DNA from: Rhizodiscina lignyota
Lineage: Eukaryota; Ascomycota; Dothideomycetes; Aulographales; Rhizodiscinaceae
Reading direction: 5' to 3'
DNA: 64,000 bases
Assembly (NCBI GenBank): GCA_010015805.1
Contig: ML978121.1
Location: 682,001 to 746,000 of the forward strand
The notes beneath the pieces were generated by a model, which was given only the letters and a program-made list of their open reading frames with translations, made no database searches and was not told the origin of the DNA. Made by a program: the position numbers and the translations under genes. Positions 15,064 to 41,750 of this stretch are shown piece after piece. Position 1 is the first letter of the stretch; each line of letters starts with the position of its first letter.

Positions 15064-16551
15064 CTAGACCAAATCTCCATATGCCTCTATGTCCCGACGG
15101 AGACGTTCCGACCAGGGTAACGGGTTGCGGCTGCAGTTGTCCAGACGTGAGTTCAGATAATTCCGCGTCATTTCAAGTGACTCCGCCATGTGCCACATCA
15201 GTAACAATCGCTGTTTAGCTCTCCAATGGTCAGGAACGTAGTCGTTGTACGTATTTATGCCCTTCTTTTCCGCAAGTTCGCAGAGATCCTCAAACATGGG
15301 GTTGACGTTATCGCTGAATCCAAGTTCAATCGCTTCGAGTCTCGGAAATCCATCGAGGCCAGTGCTGAGGAAGGAAGTCAGCGCTTCCCAAATCCGAGGC
15401 CTCTTGTCAAGCCAATTGATGGACAAACACTCCAGTGATGCTGGAAGAATGGTAATAAGATCGTCCATGTAGCCCTTCTCATCACTGCCCAAGATGTCAT
15501 AGTCGACGTGAAGGTAGTCAAGCTTATAATCTTTCAGAGAACCGATGCAGTCATCGGCGACCGTCACATCTTCCATCGGATCGTGCAAATCAATCGCCAG
15601 TACCTGAAGAGTGTGTCTGTGGGGAAAGAGCGCAGCGGCGAGCTCCTTCACTTTGAAATGAACATCTGGTGGACAGTACTCTCGGCCTCCGTAAGTGTAT
15701 TCGAAGTGTTCCAAAGCAGAACATGAGCATAGGATTGTTTGTAAGGCTCTCGTCCCCAGCCCTGAATGGATTAATTTTAAAGAAGTGATTTGGGAGAATC
15801 CACTGGAGCATTTCCACTGTTTCAAGCGGCCCGGGTGAGAGACCGTCTCGGCGTGAAGATCTTCAAACGAAGGAAGTCTGAATAGGAAGGAGAAGTCGCC
15901 AATTGAACTGGGTGCTCCGGCATCATGTCCACAAAACGTAAGTCGCTTCAGCGTCTCAAATCTATGCGGGGCGCGGCTGAGATAGACATTCCATTGCAAG
16001 GAATTGGCCATGAATGGCGCGACCCCGCTTAGAACGACATGTTCGATCCGTGGTAGATATGAAAGTAAGATCATGAGCTGTGTGTCTCCTGCTCCCCTCG
16101 CAATGGCCTTTCCGAATCTTGTATCAAAAGTATCGGCATCTCTTATGTTAGTGGGAATGATGTTGAAGTCCCCACGCTCCCAATCCGTGTCAATGATGTG
16201 TGCATTCGCTGCAGCTGAAATAAGGAAGTTGATATCGTCATTATGCGGCCGAACACGTTCAATTCTGGTGCCGGACAATGGGTGGTGGGTCTCGTCCAGG
16301 CGTATGTTGACCGTCTTGTAGTGCTTCGCATAATCGGGTCGGTTCACAATAGTTCGAAGAAATGGCAGAAGAGATCTCTCTCCGGGTAGTTGATGTACAT
16401 TTTCGTAATATTAGTAGAGAACAGGGACAACGATAGCATGCAGTGCTTTCGATGCCAAGGCAAGCTTTGCCAGAGTTGCCTGTTCCCTCCTCAAGCATTG
16501 CAGGACATCCCAAAATATGTCCGCTGGGAGGTCGTCGAGCCGAAAATGAGT
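15064..16551 (-). pseudogene. F-box-like gene with broken N-terminus
   Basis: Paralogue of the gene at 17409-18899, in the opposite direction. The frame is open for about 450 codons from 16410 to 15064 and shares blocks with its neighbour: FLFRLPSF, WKCSSGFSQIT against WKCAPGNSAVT, and SCSALEHFEYTYG against SCAALEHFEYARN, typical of fungal F-box proteins with leucine-rich-like repeats. Upstream the same frame still reads an F-box (LDDLPADIFWDVLQCL, then LALASKALHAIVVPVLY), but a TAA at 16411-16413 falls exactly where the paralogue has Ala, a TAG at 16552-16554 closes the frame, and there is no ATG between. The first usable ATG in the open part is far inside. A rescue by splicing is not obvious: any intron removing the TAA would also remove conserved residues. 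Likely a recent pseudogene, or expressed in a form I cannot model. Confidence 0.7.
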
Positions 16552-16554
16552 CTA

Positions 16555-17408
16555 TGGGTGCATCTGTCGCGTTCCGAATGCACTGGATAATTGATCAATT
16601 GGCAAAATTATTGAAAGAACGACGTCCTGAGAAAGAGACAAGTCGCTCAAAGACGCGTCAAACTCTGCGCTAAACTAAGAACAGCTGGACGACAGAGTAT
16701 TACTGACGCGCCTTTGCAAAGTACGGCTTCATAGATATTTACAAATGCCATGTGTGATCGCGATGAAATAAGCTATGAGATGGTGTCGACTTTCATTTAT
16801 GGACAAATAGCGCGTTTCTTCGTAGCGCGTGTAATTGTGACAAAATAGCCGATGCCGATGGAGGTCAAAGGGGTGGAACTCGAATTCAGTATTGCTCTTC
16901 AGAATAAGTGAGAGTATCTCTGAGAGTCATATTAAAACATACCTTAGCTATTGTCAATTGAGATTTTTTGCTTTGATCAATCTAATTTATCTTCACTAAA
17001 GACACTATGTATCTTCGTACCCCGGTGAATTGTAAAGAGGCTCAACTTTTTTGTCACACTAATCGCGCTCATCAATGCCTTTGCGCGACTCATTTCATTG
17101 ATTTCCCGCGTCCTTCAAATATCTCACGCGTCCAACTCCTTTACTCAATGTTTTGCATTACGGTCATCCTACTGTCCGTTTTGTCCAATTCTACATTGCT
17201 CTCTATGAGCTTCTACTTCTACTCTTCGTGAGATCGTCCCAGGCCGGGAGGACTATCCCCTCCCTCTGCTCCACCACATCTGAGATCGCCGCCTACATTC
17301 GCTTCTTCCCTGCGTTGGTATTCTTGTCCTGAACTCTCTGGACAAATATTACCAGCTTCATCGTGTGTGCGGGTTTTCGAAAAGAGTTGCTCAATCCGAG
17401 CATTGAAA
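16555..17408. other. Shared upstream region of the F-box-like pair
   Basis: AT-rich 850 bp between two head-to-head paralogues. No gene is supported. It may hold a bidirectional promoter left over from an inverted duplication. Confidence 0.45.
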
Positions 17409-18899
17409 ATGTCTCCACCTACTCTCGAAAGCCTCCCTGCGGAACTCCTGGTGGAGATCGTAGATTTCATCAACGAGGTTTCTTCTTTCGCAACTCTCGC
17501 GGCGACCTGCAAAACATTCAATCGAATTGCCACCCCATTCCTCTACGCTAGTTACACCAATGTTCGCGGCAACACTACGGGACGGTTCCTTCTATCCTCA
17601 AGATATTCGTTCAAGCCCTTCGTGAGAACTGTACTCGAGCGTCCAGACCTAGCCGCACTCTGCAAAGAAGTCGACATCAGACACTGGAGCACGTTATCCC
17701 TCATCGGTTCCAACGTGTGGGAACCGGAACCAATATCTGGTGAAGAACTCGTATTGTTCAAAAAGGGAGCTGTTGCAGCAAATATCCTCGACAGCGATAT
17801 CTATATTCATGAAAATACCGACCAAGACGATAGCAGTTCGGACGAATATATCAATTCGGACGACATGGAATTTGAAACTTCGCTCAAAAAAGGATCGGAA
17901 GACGCGTTACTGATAATTATGCTTGCGCATCTCCCTCGACTGGAAACGCTCATGTTTCGTGGGATGCCCGAAGAAGCATATAAGGGTCTTTCTTGGGATC
18001 GTTATCTCTCTCGGACGACTCACAACTTCAAGTTCCTGAAAACCCTCGTGTGTGGGAACGTCGAGACGGAAGGTGAATGGGAGCTTGGTCAAGTGTCTTT
18101 CTTCTTCCGGCTGCCCTCTTTTCGGTACTTCGTGGGGCGGAACATCAATCAGCCAAGCAGGATGAAAGACTGGAAATGTGCGCCGGGGAATTCCGCCGTA
18201 ACGACTATCTGCCTTCCAATGTGCTCCATGTCACTGAAAGCACTGAGAACTCTTATAGCATCTTGCGCCGCCTTGGAGCATTTTGAGTATGCACGAAATC
18301 TAGACATCTGGGATCCCAATCCCCTTAGGGCATCTGACGTGGTTGGAGCCTTGCTCTACTGGAAAGACACTTTGCAGCGTCTGACACTCACATTTACTGG
18401 CCGCGACGCAGAGCTTCTGGATCCCTCAAATATCGGAGACGTGCGACTCTTTTCGCGAATTACCCACCTCCATGTGGACTGGTTCCAGCTGAGAAACTCA
18501 GACGTGTGCAAACTGCTTCCCGAGTCACTAGTCCACCTTACCGTCAACGATCCCGATCCACGGGCACTCAGTGCCTTCACTAGCTTGGCAATATACGGCA
18601 GGAACAGCTGTCCTAATCTTAAGCGGGTCGAGTTTAGCTGTGATGAGGAGATGAATATAAATCGGTATGGAACCTCACACTTCAAAACGAGGGCTCCATA
18701 CAAGGAGCTGGCGGCTGCCTTCGCCAACGCTGGGATAGAACTTGGCCATTTCGACAGTGCACAGCGTCGCCGAAACCTTTTCGGTATTTCAGAGCCCTGG
18801 CAACCCCATCATAGTGGAGAGGAGACGGACTCGTACAGTGGAGAAGAAGATCTATTTGACTTGGAACTCAGTGCATATGATGATTATGGGTATGTCTAA
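17409..18899 (+). CDS. F-box-like protein
   Basis: Likely substrate-recognition subunit of an SCF ubiquitin ligase; target unknown. Single exon, 496 residues from the ATG at 17409 (MSPPTLESLPAELLVEIVDF); the open frame extends a little further upstream but without an ATG. An N-terminal F-box-like segment covers about residues 7-45 (LPAELLVEIVDFI, then FATLAATCKTFNRIATPFLY). The rest has spaced leucine-rich segments (LPRLETLMFRGMPEEA, FFFRLPSF, CAALEHFEYA), the usual fungal arrangement. An acidic stretch (DQDDSSSDEY region) lies around residue 140 and an acidic tail ends the protein. Its inverted neighbour at 15064-16551 is a damaged paralogue. Confidence 0.75.
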   Translation: MSPPTLESLPAELLVEIVDFINEVSSFATLAATCKTFNRIATPFLYASYTNVRGNTTGRFLLSSRYSFKPFVRTVLERPDLAALCKEVDIRHWSTLSLIGSNVWEPEPISGEELVLFKKGAVAANILDSDIYIHENTDQDDSSSDEYINSDDMEFETSLKKGSEDALLIIMLAHLPRLETLMFRGMPEEAYKGLSWDRYLSRTTHNFKFLKTLVCGNVETEGEWELGQVSFFFRLPSFRYFVGRNINQPSRMKDWKCAPGNSAVTTICLPMCSMSLKALRTLIASCAALEHFEYARNLDIWDPNPLRASDVVGALLYWKDTLQRLTLTFTGRDAELLDPSNIGDVRLFSRITHLHVDWFQLRNSDVCKLLPESLVHLTVNDPDPRALSAFTSLAIYGRNSCPNLKRVEFSCDEEMNINRYGTSHFKTRAPYKELAAAFANAGIELGHFDSAQRRRNLFGISEPWQPHHSGEETDSYSGEEDLFDLELSAYDDYGYV

Positions 18900-23779: not shown

Positions 23780-24348
23780 ATGTCAAAGGCCACCGCTATG
23801 GGTAACAGCGGTAGCTCTGAGCCAGCAACAGAGAGCGGGCGACAGCGAGACCATGAGAGATATCTCTTGGGAATGGGCATATCCACGCTGCAATTGCAAA
23901 CGTGCGATTCCAATTTGGAAAAACTCTTTGCAGAAGAGCATGCGCATGGCAGGCATGACGCATCGCGGGAGACACTGCGTAAGTACTGTTTCTAATCAGA
24001 AACGTATGAAGGACTGATCCAGCGCCAGATCAAATCTTTGAGGCTTATTATCCATTTCGCGGTTTGCTTAAGCTGGAAGCAGACAGAAATGACATAGAAC
24101 GGAATGAGACGGCAAATGTAGATCAAGAACGTTGGTTCGTGAAGCTTAACGTATGCCCGGGCGGGAAGAATACCCCCGGTGGTTGTTTGGAGGTGCTCTC
24201 TGGTGGAGTAGAGCCCACACTCTGTGAGGCATGGACTTCCTTCCGGCATAAAGTCTTAGAGGTGGCTATTCCAAAACCAGAACCAGAAAAGTCAATACTG
24301 GAAGAGACAGGCTATGATCGATGGGATCCTGGAAGATGCGGATTGTAG
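23780..24348 (+). CDS. Small-protein family member D (unnamed family)
   Basis: Two exons, 23780-23978 and 24029-24348, intron GTAAGT...CCAG, 172 residues. Acceptor choice is open: using 24022 instead adds two residues. I do not know this family, but it is clearly related to the tandem genes at 38275-40693. The intron is phase 1 at the same place (ETL then HQIF; member C has RTL then HQIC). A short charged helical N-terminus comes first. Exon 2 has a strand-like FVKLNV, then LEVLSGG, then the helix LCEAWTSFRHKV, matching FEVLRSG and ISSAWTEFKRSI of member C; the shared Ala-Trp is at about 134-135. No signal peptide or membrane span. A TATA box at 23644 and another TATATAAG near 23745 support it as a gene. 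Function unknown. Confidence 0.65.
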
Positions 24349-32179: not shown

Positions 32180-35100
32180 GGTCGCTACGGTGAACAGCCT
32201 GACGTGGGGTTGATTGAAGTGTAATGCAGCAGCTGGGCTACTCGTCAGAGTATATATGATATGAGTACGCCACACCTGCAGCGCCAAACGAACAAGGTTC
32301 CATCGTGAATGGAGCGTCAGCCGTGTTGGCCAGAAACGGGACAGGGTTACGATAATGTGCGTTAATTGACGGTGCGTGCCCGTGGTACGTCCATTAGCGG
32401 CAGTACCTTTGTGAAACTAGGACTGGTCCAGCATCTGACGAGGACCGCGTAGGTAATCTGCATGGTTGAGGATCTCCGCTGGGACGAGCAGATGGGCAAA
32501 TAGCATCCGTCATGGTGGCTCAAGCCACGCTAAGAGCGAAATCGACTCCGAGCTTGTGGCTCGCCCACTCAGAGACATAAGGAGGTTTATTAGCTCTCGG
32601 CGTAAGAGAGCGTGCGTGGGCTGGGGCGCAGATCCACTCAGATAGTAGGGGAAAAAGGCAAATGCGGGCGAATGAGAGGGGTGGACGAGCGAGAAGAAGT
32701 AAAAAACCAATGAGAGGACTTGCTGTGGAGAGTGGCAGGCCGACGCGGCCCGGTACGCATGGCAGGAAAAGCGCCGCAGAGCCACCAGCTGTCTCTGTGC
32801 CTCTTGGTGCCGTTCAAAGCTGTTTTAGAGCAGCCGTCAAATCATCAATGCCAGCGCCGGGACGCTGGTTCGCTAGCACTTACGGCAGGCGTCTAAATGG
32901 TCTAACGTGCGGTTGAAGGTTAGATGTGCGCTGGGGCAGGGCTGTCTCGGTTTGCTCCTTTGCAGGAACGAAAGCGGTCAGACACACCATCGACCCAACG
33001 ACGAGGAGTCCGGCTGCCTGGTTGCTTTGTCGCCTAGAGGTCTCATCCGCCCACTGCTGCTGTGCGAGCGTGGGCATGGTGAAGGCGGCTGGAAGGGACA
33101 GAGTGGTGACGCTGCATGAGGGCATGGATGGCAGCTCTCTGCTGCTCGTCCATCAGCGTCCTGCCAGCCACAGAGCGCTGAGACTGCGGTGACCGGCCGA
33201 GGGTATGGGCGTGTGAGCAGATGAAGTCCAGCGAGATGACGGCGCAATTGGATCAGTCAGGACCCCACCTTGCAGCAAGGCTCGTTGGAGGCCAGGAGAG
33301 CATGCAGCAGCTTGACTCGGGACGTCGGGGAGGCCAGGTGCAGGATGGTCGTTCACGTCGTGCAGTTGGTGTGTGGGGAGGCTCGTCGAGATGACGGCGA
33401 TGATCTAGAAGGCGAGAAGCACACGTTCGAAAAGCAGCCGACGCTACGCCCGGACCCCATAGCCGTGCATGCGCCAGGCGTGGCCAGGAGCCCCAAGCGC
33501 CCGTTCAAGGGTTTGCCGAGGGGTGGGCAGGCTGCCAGAGCGGCGCCCAAGGGGTACATGCATGGTGGCATGGGCGGTTGGATGGGCCTTCGATGCTCCT
33601 CGTGTGGAGATTTGGTCGCCATCACAGCACCCATCTCGAGCGCACGCAGGAAAGCCAAATACGGAATCCTTCAGCTTGGCGCCCTCTCGCCGCCATGTCG
33701 CTGTCGACTTCGCACGCCTGTCTCGCTCAGAAGGCCGGCAGCCCTGCAGCGCCGAGAGGAGAAACGCGCTGAAACGGAGTGTGCATTGGGCGATGGGGAT
33801 GACTAGCGGTGGAAGGGCTACTTTTGGCTTGCGGAGATTCAGATGGCACAGGCGCCTCATGGCTCAGATCGTCCGAGGCAATGTCCTCGCATCCTGGGAG
33901 AATGAGTGACCAGCTCGAGCCAGCCTTAGCTCCATGATCAGCGCACTCGCCGTGGCCTGCTATGGATGACACCAGAGGTGTGCCTTCGTATTAGTAGTGA
34001 CACGCGGACGGCAGAAATAACTACGTACATGCAAATGTACGTGCAACACGCCAGAGGCGACATCGAGCCTAAAGCAGAGGCGACGGCGGGACTACTGCGC
34101 GCAATTCTAATCCCTACCATTCATGTACCAACAGCCGGATGCGCCGCTGTGAGAGGCAGAGTCGTTAGACTTGATTCTGCGCCTGCTCGACCCGACATGC
34201 TGCTATTTGCTTCCACCTGCTCGACACCATCTCGATATTCCCGAGCTGGGCCACTGCCTGATTCATGAATCATGCTCGACCTGAAGCAAACACTTTTGCC
34301 GTCCACGCTCCAAGGCACAATCACCCCTTGCTGCACCACCAGCGCCAGGCAGTCATCCCACACAGCAGTGCTTGATTACGGCAATGTGGAATTGTGGAGA
34401 GCGCAGGGCCGGCAAGGCCGGGCAAGCATCAGCAGCAAATACGGATATAATCGCAGCATGATGATGGGCTTTTGAAACTGCCTCAGCAAGCAAAGTCGCC
34501 GCCGCAGGATTCGTGGATTGCCAGCATGCATCACCGCCGCTGCTCTGCAACTGTCACGGCAGCTAAACAACGGCCCCGACGCCAGCCAGTTCCTTTCCCC
34601 CTCGCTGGCCGGTCAGCGGGGCTGAAGAAAAAGAGGGCTCGTTGCACCTCTCATGTGTTCCGCATTCCTGCACTCTGCAATGAGAGGCTACACGGACGAG
34701 CATGTCGCGCACTGCCACTGGATGGATGGATGCGTGCAATGTGCTTCGATGCCTGGGATCGTGACTCTGGGCATCCATCTCTCCGATGACGTTCAATATC
34801 CCAACCGCGCACCTGCACCTGTTTGGAACGTGGCCCACAGCCGGGCTCCACCTCTGCTGCTGAGCATGGGTCTGCCGAGATCTTTCCACCGCGGCAAGCT
34901 CCCTTTTGGCCACGGCGCTTCGCTCGGGTGCTGGGAAGATGAGACCTCGAAAGGGTTCAGGCTATGACCGAACCCTACCGTTAACTTTTAGCACACCCGC
35001 CCCACGCTCGACTGCCCATATTGCTTTATTTGTACATTCCTTCCACCCATGGCCGGTGTGGCTCGCGTGCGTCCATACTCATTCTGACTCTACCTGAGAC

Positions 35101-38100
35101 TCTCTAATGTCAAATAACGCCCTCGCGGATATTCTCGACTCGGGCAACGGCTCATTTGGCTTCTCCTTCGCATCCATGACTCTCGGCTTGCTCTTCCACC
35201 TTGCATCTCCTGATTTTCGTGGTACGCTACGCATACGCGACTTCTCCGCTCCAGTGGCTTCAAGGATCGTGGCACATTGGCGCGCTTCGTGACCTGTCAC
35301 ATGTCCTAGCCTGGTTGCGGTGCGCTGGGCCGGACCTGGGGAGTTGCTTTAATAGTCTCAACATCGAGAGCAAACGCTGCCAAACAGCCCCATGCTTCAC
35401 CGCTAAACTCAACAGTACAGCTGTAGAAAAGGCCACCGATGATCCCAATGAGAGACTCGACGGTCTCACGACTCACGGTCGCGACGGTTCCGAGTAAATC
35501 CAGCCCGGAGCTGGCAGTATCGGTCTGTCTCGACAAATACCGACTGTTCGAAGCGAGTCTTCTACCCTTCACCATCTCGACAGCCTGTCTGTGAGCCTTC
35601 GGAATTACTTGATCAAGGTCAGATCGCGAACAATATGCCAGCCACAGCCGTCCACCACCTCCCTTGCCACCCCCGGAAGAGTGTTCTCTGCGATATCGTG
35701 ATCTCGTAATGACAGTGCATCATGGCATGAGGGGTGCTCAACCATCGGCGGTTGACAGGCTCGATAGGCGTAAGCGACAGGAGCATGTGTCTCAACACAG
35801 TCCGAATGCTGAGGTACAACTCCAAGCCAATGCCCGAATAATGATGTTGCTTATCGTTGTACGATAGCGGTTAAACGTCCGCATCGCAGGCATCTCCGCC
35901 ATGAAAATTATTTCTGCTGCATAGCTAACTACCTGGTATATTGCCACTTCCACTGCTACCAGCTGCTCCTGCAGGGAAGATCTCCTTTTCTTCCTATTGG
36001 TGTATGCTTACCGGTTTGATATGCTTTGAGCCATGTTCTGCAGCATGACATCCGCAGATACTTATTAAGCAACCACCCACACTTGACGTCTGAAAATAAT
36101 AATAACGAGGAGGGACTTTGGCGAATTTTCCGATTCATCATACGAGGTCGGCATAATGCTCGCCACAGTTCCACGCGCATGCTCCCTCTCCGTTGTACGC
36201 CTGTACGAGCTGATACTCCGACGCCGGGGCGCCAAATCCTAGTAATTATAGTCCTCCTGAAGATCCCGAATTAAACGAAGACGATTTGTCCAAACGCTTA
36301 TGTTTGCTTGGGATGTCATAGCGCGTGCGAGTGCAAGACACCATTCGGTAATGCCGCTCGATAGGGAAGCTATTTTGTATCAGAGAGCAGGTCATGCGGA
36401 TTGCGGCTGAGTTGCCTGTCAGGCCAATATGTGAACCTCCTACTGTGGGGTCCCGTCAGAGGGGTACTTTGGTACATGGTCAGACCGCAGACAAGGGAGG
36501 GTAGACAAGGCCGGAACGCCGAAAAGAAAAGAACATCCTCTCGCTCTCTTGGCAGGTCCGTATGTAAGCTGACTTGTACGGAGTTATGTACTGCAAATAT
36601 ATTCGCAAAACATCTTGGACAATGCTGTCATTTTCATTATTTGAGATGCTCACTGACGTGGGAGCCGCTCTCGTTTTACTTAATGAGATTGGATCGGACT
36701 TCATGATCGCGGTTACGCGCCGGAAACGGAGATGGGAGCTGCTAAAAAGAAATCCTCTGTCTGAGATCCGCGACAACCACTCTCAGCGATCATTCAGCCT
36801 CAATTGAACTGCTGATGACGTCCACTTTCTGATGACATGCTTCCCAGGGTCTGGAGGAGACAAGGAAATTGCTCCATCAAGAAGCTATGTATGTACGCAC
36901 TCCTGTCATCGACGATTTACAGCAGCGATATTCCTTTCTGCGACATGGTATAACGCCTCCTGGAGAACGAAGGTGCACTCAGAGTCAGGCACCTGTCAAT
37001 TGAAAAGCACTAAGGCATGCTTTGTGCCGCGCAGGATTGATTTCATCCCACCACCCTCAATTTACCAACATGGTCTCACCGGTGGTTCCGAAGCCGTGTC
37101 CGTACGCCAGCGGATATACTACTTCGACACTTGGATAATCCAGGACCCCGTGTGCTACGACATGTGGCCAGACTCCATGTGATCGTAATGGTCTTAGCCG
37201 CTCAAAGGCCAGAGGACAGTTGGTTCCCTCGGTTTCAATGAATCAATATGCATTGGCAACGAGAGCAACGCACCGATGTCATTCGGACTGAGCTCGCGCT
37301 GATAGATCGACCGGATATTCCAGATGCTGGTCCATGTGCACTCGAGATCTTTGGCTCTTGTCTCTCTCATACGCCGTGCTCTTTCTATTCATACACCGGT
37401 TCATTCGTAGACTTCCTTTTCTTTTCACTAATCCAATATCTATCTCTTTGATCATGGACAAACTGAATAGAGTGCTATAGAAGGCGAAAGAGTTATTAAC
37501 GTAATAGACCGCCTCCGAAATCTCCGAATCGAATGGTCGAGACATAGCGCAGCGTCTGCAATTGCTGTATAATCTATTCAGGGGTTATGCCTCTTTTCGG
37601 CTGTCAGTGAATTGATGGAATTAATAGGCACGATGCAATGTGTACGCCAAATGAAGTCTTCGTGGCTTCTCGTGAGCGTTTACCCTGTGAGAGGCAAAGT
37701 CGAGACCGAATTCGCAGCGGATTGTGAGTAGCTTGATCTGATCACTGGTCGCGTATCTTGCGACCATGAGCCAAAGGTAGATGAAGAGCTCGATTATGTG
37801 CCGCTCGCTCATTGCAAGACCGCGGAGCAACCCTGGAAACGAAATGCTGGACGAGTTACTACTCCTCCACGCGGTGACGATCTTGAGCTTGCGGGTTGGT
37901 TATGGCCTCTTCCGGTGCCTGAAAATCTCATATCAGAAGCATTTCCCCTTTAGCCGTCCTCATTTCAGCTCCTTACGCCTCTGGCGCTTCTAATGGCATG
38001 AATGAATGCTGGTTTTGCAAAATGCTGCGTCAAAGGAATTAATTCCGTATAGGATGTGCACCTATCTTTTAGCTTTCTTATTCGGTGCTCTTAAGATTCT

Positions 38101-38274
38101 CTTAAGATTCTCCAAGTACACCTCTTCTTGATTATTTTCAATATATAAGCCTTTTCGGTTCCCTTCGCTCTTCCTTTTGAGTTTAATCTCTGGTGAGCCC
38201 AACTTGTGGAGGGCAATTGTGAATTCTTATATCACTACTAATTATCACACAAGAAACTTCCCTTCCTCTTCAGT
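32180..38274. other. Six-kilobase gene desert
   Basis: No gene is supported over 6.1 kb, the largest such gap here. It has two parts. From about 32.3 to 35.1 kb it is GC-rich with many overlapping open frames on both strands (for example 33270-33806 and 33469-33909 plus, 33444-33860 minus), none with protein-like pattern, a typical composition effect. From about 35.8 to 38.2 kb it is AT-richer with short frames only. I see no transposase, reverse transcriptase, terminal repeats or tRNA. A short direct repeat (cttaagattct twice) lies near 38091-38112. It could hold long non-coding RNA, distal promoter sequence or eroded repeats. Confidence 0.5.
38142..38149 (+). promoter_or_regulatory. TATA box of family member A
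   Basis: TATATAAG, 133 bp upstream of the start codon of member A, followed by a C/T-rich tract as in fungal core promoters. Confidence 0.5.
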
Positions 38275-38738
38275 ATGGATACCAGCACCATGACAACAGA
38301 TGCCTACGATAGGCTCCTCGAGCGTGCGGCTCAGGACAGATTGCGCAGAAAGACCATCGAGAGATTTCAGGAATCAGACTATTACCTCTCCGATGTCATC
38401 GTTGATAAAGAAGACCAGTGCATTCTCAGTAAGTAGCTTCCGTTTGAAAAGGACACTATCGCTAATTGCCTGAAGACAAAATTTGCATACTCTACCCGAA
38501 CGCCCTCGAACAGCTTGAGTTGGTTACCGGCACTGTACCAGCATCGAAAGGTGACAAGCCTGATTATATCGTCGCGCTGCTTCGACGCCCGGGAAATACC
38601 GACGAGACTCCCTTCGAGGTGATCATTGCTGGCTGCCAGAGGGACTCACTGCACCGGGCGTGGTGCAGCTTTGTCAAGAACGTGAATCTGGAGATGGGCC
38701 GTCACTTAACCGCCGTACCCATGACCAAGGCTTATTGA
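38275..38738 (+). CDS. Small-protein family member A (unnamed family)
   Basis: Two exons, 38275-38428 and 38476-38738 (GTAAGT...GAAG, 47-nt intron), 138 residues. First of three tandem paralogues. The N-terminal 50 residues are charged and helical (RLLERAAQDRLRRKTIERF). Exon 2 begins at the conserved phase-1 junction (CIL then NKICILY) and has alternating strand-like segments KICILY, YIVALLRRP and FEVIIAG, then the helix SLHRAWCSFVKNVNLEM with the shared Ala113-Trp114. Strands followed by one C-terminal helix with a central Trp recall PH-like folds, but the domain is short and this is only a shape argument. No secretion signal or membrane span. Function unknown. Confidence 0.7.
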
Positions 38739-39151
38739 GCAAGCTGGGATGGAAACGGCGTGGTATTCACCCTTTTCCTTGGTACGAGCATTGGTGAATA
38801 TCAGATTGGGCACACTGAAGAAGCCTCAAATGACACATTGAATAAGAGAGACAGATTCAGAGGAGGACTCTAAGTTCCCGACTATTCATCTACATCCGGG
38901 GTTAGCCGCTTGCTCGGCCTTTTTTTAATTTCATGCTCTTCGGCATTTGTGTGGAAACTTTAACACCGGGAGAGTCATATATTTTCTCCGAAAGCTTAAA
39001 TGGTGGTGGTTATGTCACTCTGCCAGGTTTGTTTACATTTTCAAACCTTTAACACTCAGATGCTCTAGCACAAGGCTAAAACTTATCCTCTTCTCTACTC
39101 GCCGAGATCATACAACTATACAAGCTCACTACCTTCCTTTACATCTTGAGA

Positions 39152-39660
39152 ATGCCGCTCTCGGACATCGGTGATAGAATGGACGACCTAGAGAAGGATC
39201 TGGATCGATTTGAGGACCGACAGAAACGCGCGATTCTCCGCCTTGCAAAGAGCGATACTTCCCTCGAACTCGTAGACGAACGTGGTACAATCGACAAACA
39301 TGTCGAAAAGACTCTAAGTAAGCTTTTTACCCATTGAGCCCATATGTTGCCAGTTAATTATCTGAAGGGAGCATCTGCATAGTGTACGACTACCACCGTA
39401 GGGCCATCAATGGCCAAATTCTCGAGCTCCTGTCAGGCGGCTCTTACACCCATATCTTGACCTACGGTTGGTCTCAAGTCGTAGTTCTCATCGCAAGACC
39501 GATCGACGGATCTGGAAATGTCGAGATGTTGCTGTGCAGCAGTTTCAAGGATAGCATCAAGGAGGCTTGGGACGATCTTGCGTTCAAAATCCACGAAAAG
39601 GTGGGCAGCAGGGCTGTCGAGGCAATGGAGGATGTTCCTGTGCAGTGGTATATTGGGTGA
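39152..39660 (+). CDS. Small-protein family member B (unnamed family)
   Basis: Two exons, 39152-39317 and 39383-39660 (GTAAGC...ATAG), 147 residues. Second of the tandem set, 413 bp after A. The N-terminus is a strongly charged helix (DRMDDLEKDLDRFEDRQKRA). The intron is phase 1 at the family position (KTL then MYDY). Exon 2 carries QILELLSGG, the strand VVVLIARP, VEMLLCS and the helix DSIKEAWDDLAFKIHEKV with Ala117-Trp118. It has diverged most at the start of exon 2, where the ICILY strand of A and C is replaced. Start is the ATG of MPLSDIGDRM. Intracellular by appearance. Confidence 0.7.
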
Positions 39661-40131
39661 ATTGAGTGCCGATTTGGCGCACACTCTCCCCCAGCAGTGA
39701 ATTCAGTCCAAATCGCCAGTTCATATGCGATTTTGAAAGCATTGGGTGTCTCCGCACGTGGTCGGCATCGGGGCATGGGGCTGTGGCAGTGGCATCGCAG
39801 GTAGTCGTTAAAAGCGGTCTGGTTTCCTTACAAGAGATATGCAATGGTAATGGGACTCTGCGGTTGGGCATCTGGGTGGAGCAATGTCGGTGTTCGGCTC
39901 TCTTTTGGTCTGATGACAATTCGGCGAGTCACAGCCTCAGCCGAGGAAAAGTTGAGAGGTCTCTCTTCACATGTCTGAAGCGAATTTGGCGTAGACCTCG
40001 TTTCTCATCAGAGTAGCATTCACACAACGCCGACCGTTTGCATGCATAATTACAGAGAATTGGCTTTGTTGTTCCCCAGCTTCATTAACGGGAAGCCTTT
40101 TGAATATCAAGATCTTATGATAGCTACAGCT
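39661..40131. other. Spacer between family members B and C
   Basis: About 470 bp. No additional family copy can be recognised in it. The open frame 40042-40131 in phase with member C may be its leader or an N-terminal extension. Confidence 0.45.
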
Positions 40132-40693
40132 ATGACAGAGCCTCCAACGGCAGAAGCCATGACCAACGTGTTGAACGAGATGGAACTATCCACGAAACTG
40201 CTAGACAAAGCAATGAAGCGACTCGAAGAAAGCGACGAGTATCTCTATAAAGACGTGTTCGACTATGGAGGGGGTCGGTATCGCCATCGCTGGCGAAGAA
40301 CCCTTCGTGAGCTTGATCGCCGTAAAACTCATGAGGGTGGTACGCTGACTTCCACAAGATCAAATCTGCATACTCTATGACTCTGAAAGTAGAGCCCTGG
40401 AGCATCAAGTTCTGGAACTTAAACTAAGAAAGTACCAGAAAGAGAATTGGGACAAACTTGCTGTTGTACTCATCTCCCGCATGATTGGGGCAAACGAAGG
40501 GGGAAAGGGAGGCTTCGAGGTTCTTCGGTCCGGGCCTTGGAAAGGAGATATTTCATCCGCCTGGACTGAATTCAAAAGAAGCATTGAGGTCGACATGGAG
40601 GCAAGGATCAAAGAGCAGACGGAGGCCGAGGGCGCTGAGGACGTGGCAGCAGGAAGCTCTTGGAGCTATGAAGTGATCGTAATGGATGAGTAG
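40132..40693 (+). CDS. Small-protein family member C (unnamed family)
   Basis: Two exons, 40132-40306 and 40359-40693 (GTGAGC...CAAG with a gctgac branch point), 169 residues from the ATG of MTEPPTAEAM; in-frame ATGs at 40042 and 40117 would lengthen it. Third tandem member. The N-terminus is helical (TNVLNEMELSTKLLDKAMKR). After the phase-1 junction (RTL then HQICILY) come a long polar helix, the strand LAVVLISRM, FEVLRSG, and the helix DISSAWTEFKRSIEVDME with Ala126-Trp127. It has a longer acidic tail than A or B. Its stop codon is two bases from the stop of the convergent gene at 40696. Confidence 0.7.
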
Positions 40694-40695
40694 TA

Positions 40696-41750
40696 TCACA
40701 CATCTTTCATAAATTCCGCTACTGCTTTCGCCGCGAATTTCTTCCTCTCGGATTCAGGTATTGTCGCGCTCATATCTGCGGAACGGAATTAGCAGTGTCT
40801 AGACTGTTTCACTCGGAATGACATGCCTTTAACCGCTTGCATCCTCACCATCATTCTCTCCAGCTCTTCAACCTGTGCCGCCTGGTCATCATCCACTGTA
40901 CCAGAAGGTTCGCCATCTTCTCCATAGATGGCTTCCTTCATACCCATGAACTCCATATTGATCTCAACTTCTTCAGCCGCAAACGAGCCGTTGAAGTCGC
41001 CGTCCTCATCTAGGCCTAGTTCTGCCAGGGCCTCCTCCACATCATCATCGTCGGCCTCGGCCGCCCATTCGTTTGTTGATAGGGCTTCCTTTATTCGTTC
41101 GATGCCGACAGGTTCTGCATGGGTTTAGCCTTTCAGCTCCTCCGGGTGAGACAAATTCCACACCTACCACCGTACTCGTTCCGGCCCTTTGCCTCAAAGT
41201 CCACATACTCAAATCCAAATTCGCCGCACATTTCATCCCACTCCTCAAAGTCCTTCTCCAAATATGGCGTCGTACTCTGCGGCATTGCAACCGCAAGCCG
41301 TACAACCTCCCCTCCATAGCCCCAGTCCGACCCAGCTCCACCTGCAGCCCCTACGTCCTGTATGGCTTTCAGCGCCTCCTTTATTGACTCAACATCTTTG
41401 CTGTCCAGTGGTCGTCGGAAGCAATATATGAATGCTCCTAGCACAGCGACTACCTCCTTCGCCTCGTCCTTCATAAACTCCGTCCGCCACTCCGCAATGT
41501 CAGCGACCTCATCAACCCATGTTGGTATCGTCGCCTTGTAGTATCGCGTCTCAAGCCTCCATTCGTGCGATAGGCCAGCGGTCGAATTGTCAACGGGCGT
41601 GGGTGCGGAGCCTGTCAAGTCTGGAGGGGGTGGTTAGAGGGTATTCGAAGGAATGAGGCAGAGGAAGCTGAGCCGACCTTTGAGGAGCTGGAGGCTGCCG
41701 CAATTTGGCGGTCCGAGGACGAGGATTCGGCGAGGGTTCTGGACTTCCAT
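40696..41750 (-). CDS. Alpha/gamma-adaptin-binding protein p34-like (AAGAB/Irc6 type)
   Basis: Fungal relative of AAGAB/p34 and yeast Irc6, which chaperone clathrin adaptor (AP) assembly. Four exons, 41678-41750, 41168-41620, 40827-41114 and 40696-40775, sum to 894 nt (297 residues). The N-terminus has the GTPase-like ILVLGPPNCGSLQLLKD segment, then ATIPTWVDEV, FIYCFRRPLDS and EFGFEYVDFEAKG. The C-terminus has the conserved helical end LERMMVRMQAVKDMSA and ERKKFAAKAV. The last intron (40776-40826) begins with GC (AAAG then GCATGT) and ends CAG, a GC-AG intron; reading on would give a short unrelated tail. Convergent with family member C, stops two bases apart. Confidence 0.85.

Follow-up and report, generated by a model that had tools for sequence, protein, structure and literature searches.

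A divergent family of four predicted two-exon genes, three of them in tandem, unmatched within the databases searched

Gene models and relatedness of the four genes

We re-derived four small two-exon genes, A, B, C and D, in the window (the whole stretch of 64,000 nucleotides that was analysed), and their predicted products appear with high confidence to belong to one real family of paralogues, as the shuffled controls and the leave-one-out profiles described below agree with the earlier proposal of divergent paralogues, three of which are in tandem. On the plus strand, A, B and C follow one another with stop-to-start gaps of 413 and 471 nt, and D is found about 14 kb upstream of them on the same strand. 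The predicted gene models are as follows (window coordinates).

38275..38428, plus strand: gene A exon 1; charged start, ends in CIL, phase 1
38429..38475, plus strand: gene A intron, 47 nt, GTAAGT...CTGAAG; the sole solution within the scanned stretch
38476..38738, plus strand: gene A exon 2 (KICILYP...FEV...AWCSF); protein of 138 aa
39152..39317, plus strand: gene B exon 1; ends in KTL, phase 1
39318..39367, plus strand: gene B intron, 50 nt; the original prediction uses a longer intron of 65 nt, up to 39382
39368..39660, plus strand: gene B exon 2 (SICIVYD...VEM...AWDDL); protein of 152 aa
40132..40306, plus strand: gene C exon 1; ends in RTL, phase 1
40307..40358, plus strand: gene C intron, 52 nt, GTGAGC...CACAAG; one acceptor further downstream is open too
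40359..40693, plus strand: gene C exon 2 (QICILYD...FEV...AWTEF); protein of 169 aa
23780..23978, plus strand: gene D exon 1; ends in ETL, phase 1
23979..24028, plus strand: gene D intron, 50 nt, GTAAGT...CGCCAG; two alternatives are also open
24029..24348, plus strand: gene D exon 2 (QIFEAYY...LEV...AWTSF); protein of 172 aa, the most divergent of the four

These models were derived by scanning for introns that start with GT, end with AG and measure 40-90 nt, the donor being sought in 40-45 nt around the junction and a minimum protein length being set for each gene, which returned one solution for A, two for B, two for C and three for D. All eight solutions are in phase 1 and seven of them use the shared donor, the eighth being a 41-nt intron in gene D with the donor GTTTCT; B, C and D each have one alternative acceptor. 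The single phase-1 intron at the same point, which had been noted earlier for all four genes, was thereby recovered, at the same alignment position in four of the four predicted models, and the two-exon structures of A, C and D were reproduced from the sequence at their original lengths. For gene B, the two exons and the phase-1 intron stand, but the original length of 147 aa does not, since the acceptor at 39367, 15 nt upstream of the earlier choice, seems to fit better, giving a protein of 152 aa with the motif ICI[LV]Y. We prefer this acceptor because B then regains the sequence SICIVYD, the counterpart in the alignment of KICILYP (A) and QICILYD (C), and because the similarity to a fragment on another contig (C8, next section) begins 3 nt before the resulting exon start. 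The strand containing FEV, VEM or LEV and the Ala-Trp pair described earlier are found in all four members, and the exon-2 residues I, Y, L, E, V, L, E, A and W are invariant across A-D.

When 2000 shuffles were scored for each pair of genes, none reached the real score for A-B, A-C, B-C or C-D. We also used profiles built from three members to search 5619 open segments together with the four proteins, and the left-out member was recovered in each case, with E-values of 7.6e-12 for C, 3.7e-8 for B, 5.3e-6 for A and 9.7e-4 for D. Codon usage, referred to 163 open segments of 90-150 codons among which the real genes were left, supports that A, B and C are coding, as they score 0.097, 0.108 and 0.087 bits per codon, respectively, all above the 90th percentile (0.024) of these segments; it does so less for D (-0.006), which exceeds the median (-0.085) only. 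This weak codon bias, together with the 27 and 65 of 2000 shuffles that reach the real scores of A-D and B-D, respectively, and a genome search with exon 2 of D that returned D alone, would agree with a relationship confined to A, B and C, the resemblance of D being due to chance. However, we consider this very improbable in view of the C-D shuffles and the leave-one-out E-value of D, and since its phase-1 junction after ETL adjoins HQI, as does that after RTL in C; moreover, an exon-2 consensus reaches D in the genome, though at an E-value of 0.09 only.

The exon-2 identity between tandem neighbours is 23-36% in the pairs that were aligned, and the longest direct repeat in the region 37500-41500 lies around the start of exon 2. 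Since this repeat is 35 nt long at 69-77% identity, the duplications that gave rise to A, B and C are not recent. The four genes make up a well-delimited unnamed family, the paralogy of which can be argued from gene structure and sequence together, and which comprises, in a single genome, the three genes in tandem, a more distant fourth member and one decayed fragment. They may thus serve studies of the origin and decay of such families and the determination of a first structure for a domain without a name, and they alone settle no long-standing question.

Related sequences elsewhere in the genome

We searched the assembly containing the window (33.4 Mb, 29 contigs) using as exon-2 queries those of C (whole and trimmed), B, A and D, their consensus, and a degenerate DNA pattern of the exon-2 start, as well as two exon-1 queries. 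All queries together returned A-D, one fragment on contig C8, one match on contig C11 and one weak match on contig C3. The exon-2 queries of A and D returned only themselves, those of C failed to find A and D, and the consensus query alone recovered all four genes; one of the exon-1 queries found C only and the other A and C only, B and D being missed by both. As several of the searches also missed known members, more divergent members may have been missed. Within this limited sensitivity, the proposal that the family is expanding is not borne out, as nothing beyond A-D, the decayed C8 fragment and two weak matches was retrieved from the genome. Profile searches detected no further members in the 50 kb on either side of the window, in 80 kb around the C8 fragment or in 20 kb around the C3 match.

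The C8 fragment (943620-943784, minus strand) is 81% identical to gene B over 162 nt, contains a pair of compensating indels and lacks the Trp helix. Over 54 codons, its dN and dS are 0.21 and 0.25, a rough ratio given that there are only 8 synonymous changes, and both become 0.17 once six codons around the indels are removed. We read it as a putative decayed, B-like partial copy, and, with its dN about equal to its dS, it points to gain and loss of copies. The C11 match to the exon-2 pattern runs into a stop codon after five residues and was rejected as a chance match. The weak match of C exon 2 on C3 (2704747-2704932, minus strand; E-value 0.0082) has 26% identity and one internal TAA; it scored E-values of 0.27 and 0.37 by profile and of 0.012, 0.21 and 0.45 in three of the four leave-one-out runs, being absent from the list of the fourth, and is probably a chance match as well.

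As a separate observation, the C8 fragment lies among short repeats (L024 3238-4069, minus strand), several of which are spaced 55 bp apart and the core of which resembles the exon-2 start motif of A-C. The pattern TCYGCATANWGTRYGA, which was drawn up after inspecting this same stretch, has 13 matches with up to 3 mismatches in 10 kb at C8, where 2.29 are expected and none of 200 shuffles reaches 13. Tandem Repeats Finder reported no 55 bp array there, and a 391 nt piece of the repeat stretch was not found elsewhere in the genome.

Comparison with known families and folds

Searches of Pfam, NCBIfam, PHROGs and the PDB sequences gave no credible match to A-D. Specifically, nothing in Pfam was above the cut-off for the four full proteins or the four exon-2 parts, NCBIfam gave 0 families for the four members, and PHROGs gave five weak matches, each with a single member; the 177,635 PDB sequences were searched with three family profiles (A1, A3 and A4) and with C alone. 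Phage records contained no match to exon 2 of C, viral contigs contained no pattern match with exon 2 of B, and the 19 pattern matches with the latter in prokaryote genomes include none encoding a relative. Among the matches listed for the literature on lineage-specific or orphan families and on GUCT, the portions of text covered hold no description of A-D. Unnamed small gene families are numerous in fungal genomes, and the family formed by A-D would seem unmatched within the databases searched and ordinary in kind.

For the fold, we applied AlphaFold2 to exon 2 of C (110 aa) and of B (86 aa) with a four-row alignment. The mean pLDDT was low for both (45.3 for C and 55.5 for B), and the other four models of the B run reach only 39.5-42.9. 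The low-confidence B model, in which the blocks of residues 41-80 have a mean pLDDT of 64-78, places strands at residues 2-6, 18-21, 36-42 and 52-56, followed by a helix at 63-85, and suggests that exon 2 may comprise four strands and then a helix. Foldseek gave no match at an E-value of 0.001 or below.

It is possible, if doubtful, that A-D have diverged from a known fold or family, whether PH-like, GUCT, SRP9/14-like or some other, which four sequences would be too few to reveal, and the lack of anything over the Pfam cut-off speaks against this. The closest candidate match is to PDB 2m3d of DDX21, which we take to be a GUCT domain (presumably Pfam PF08152). Profile A4 matches it at an E-value of 0.0084 over 42 aligned residues, in which a strand is followed by an Ala-Trp helix as in A-D, the hhalign probability on the 2m3d fragment is 36.6%, and none of 120 shuffles of the fragment scores as high. 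On the other hand, the E-value is 0.021 with profile A3 and 0.65 with A1, the best stretch alone has an i-E of 0.056, 2m3d is the best picked from the whole set of PDB sequences, and no other chain named as this helicase type occurs among the matches listed up to an E-value of 10. Furthermore, the match covers half of exon 2, A-D are without a helicase core, and no GUCT match was found in Pfam at E-values up to 10 for the four proteins and the four exon-2 parts with the HMMER filters on. We therefore regard the apparent GUCT match as borderline.

The signal recognition particle protein SRP14 (PF02290), the fold of which is alpha-beta-beta-beta-alpha, has a size like that of A-D and a helix-strands-helix order like that predicted for them, and the genome's own SRP14 gene, on contig C3, has a phase-1 intron (introns as we placed them) about 30 residues before its VIIRA strand, in a comparable part of the gene. 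However, the local scores of A, B and C with SRP14 fall below the shuffle mean and that of D is reached by 452 of 2000 shuffles, an end-gap-free alignment is reached by 313 to 1434 of 2000 shuffles, the hhalign score of 8.8 is reached by 151 of 200 column-shuffled controls, and Pfam gives no SRP14 match to A-D at E-values up to 10. As neither the pairwise nor the profile comparison rises above the shuffled controls, we rejected this link at the sequence level and attribute the shared intron to coincidence. PH-like domains also have strands followed by a C-terminal helix with a Trp, but a PH domain has seven strands whereas four are predicted in the B model, and the fold search lends no support; the two low-confidence models speak neither for nor against a PH-like fold. 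Another family, the bicycle genes of aphids, resembles A-D in diverging fast and in that gene structure helps to reveal homology, but these insect genes form a large family and have been implicated as effectors of plant galls (PMC9168663), and no relation to A-D is claimed.

Putative role and genomic neighbourhood

The four proteins have masses of 15.8-19.5 kDa and are acidic (pI 5.08-5.40). By hydropathy, no hydrophobic N terminus or membrane segment was detected in A-D, the highest 19-residue Kyte-Doolittle mean being 1.19, and there is no signal-peptide-like start either, such as secreted small effectors would carry (within the first 36 residues, the 12-residue mean peaks at 0.45). The invariant exon-2 residues are more suggestive of a packing core than of an active site, and since they hold no recognisable catalytic set, the putative mode of action is binding. 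With low confidence, A-D may be small, acidic and soluble proteins that act by binding, each paralogue with partners of its own, and that stem from old tandem duplication. Under this reading, one ancestral two-exon gene would have given rise to A, B and C by old tandem duplication and to the copy D. Each member would be a small soluble intracellular protein, in which exon 1 would encode a charged N-terminal helix and exon 2 a small beta sheet followed by a C-terminal helix bearing the invariant Ala-Trp. The Trp helix may pack onto the sheet, forming the core, and the variable loops and the first helix may provide a different protein partner for each paralogue or, alternatively, a shared oligomer.

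As a whole, this combination of old paralogues, a helix, a sheet and a Trp helix, and putative binding is our best explanation, held tentatively. A further reading, that A-D represent a new small alpha+beta domain in which a helix, four strands and the Trp helix are uniquely arranged, and which one fungal lineage would use in paralogous intracellular binding proteins, appears unlikely. The strong divergence of the tandem neighbours in exon 2 and the presence of a decayed copy elsewhere in the genome would also be expected of fast-evolving recognition genes, acting in allorecognition or intracellular immunity, the diversity of which is kept by selection. However, old age fits the divergence equally well, and Pfam showed no recognition gene among 17 translations from the window, so that we consider this quite improbable. 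All the translations named by Pfam belong to ordinary genes, namely, a ubiquitin hydrolase, a protein kinase, a TRAPP component, a PGP phosphatase, a polysaccharide deacetylase, TRAP alpha, a CCCH zinc-finger protein, a nitronate monooxygenase, a Fringe-like protein and two LRR_15 genes.

Some further features of the window were noted. No tRNA (ARAGORN in bacterial mode) and no Rfam family was found in it, and a search of the assembly for the 5.8S rRNA family gave no match. Directly downstream of C, at 40789-41633 on the minus strand, lies a probable two-exon gene, the product of which we take to resemble the Irc6/AAGAB p34 family; one of its exons gave nothing in Pfam. In the approximately 5.7 kb directly upstream of A (32500-38200), no gene was recognised by eye, and the GC content is 58.6% at 32-34 kb and 55.5% at 34-36 kb, compared with roughly 50% around. 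The two adjacent LRR_15 genes (15064-16410, minus strand, and 17232-18899, plus strand), one of which carries an F-box, are diverged paralogues with 31% identity over 369 columns.
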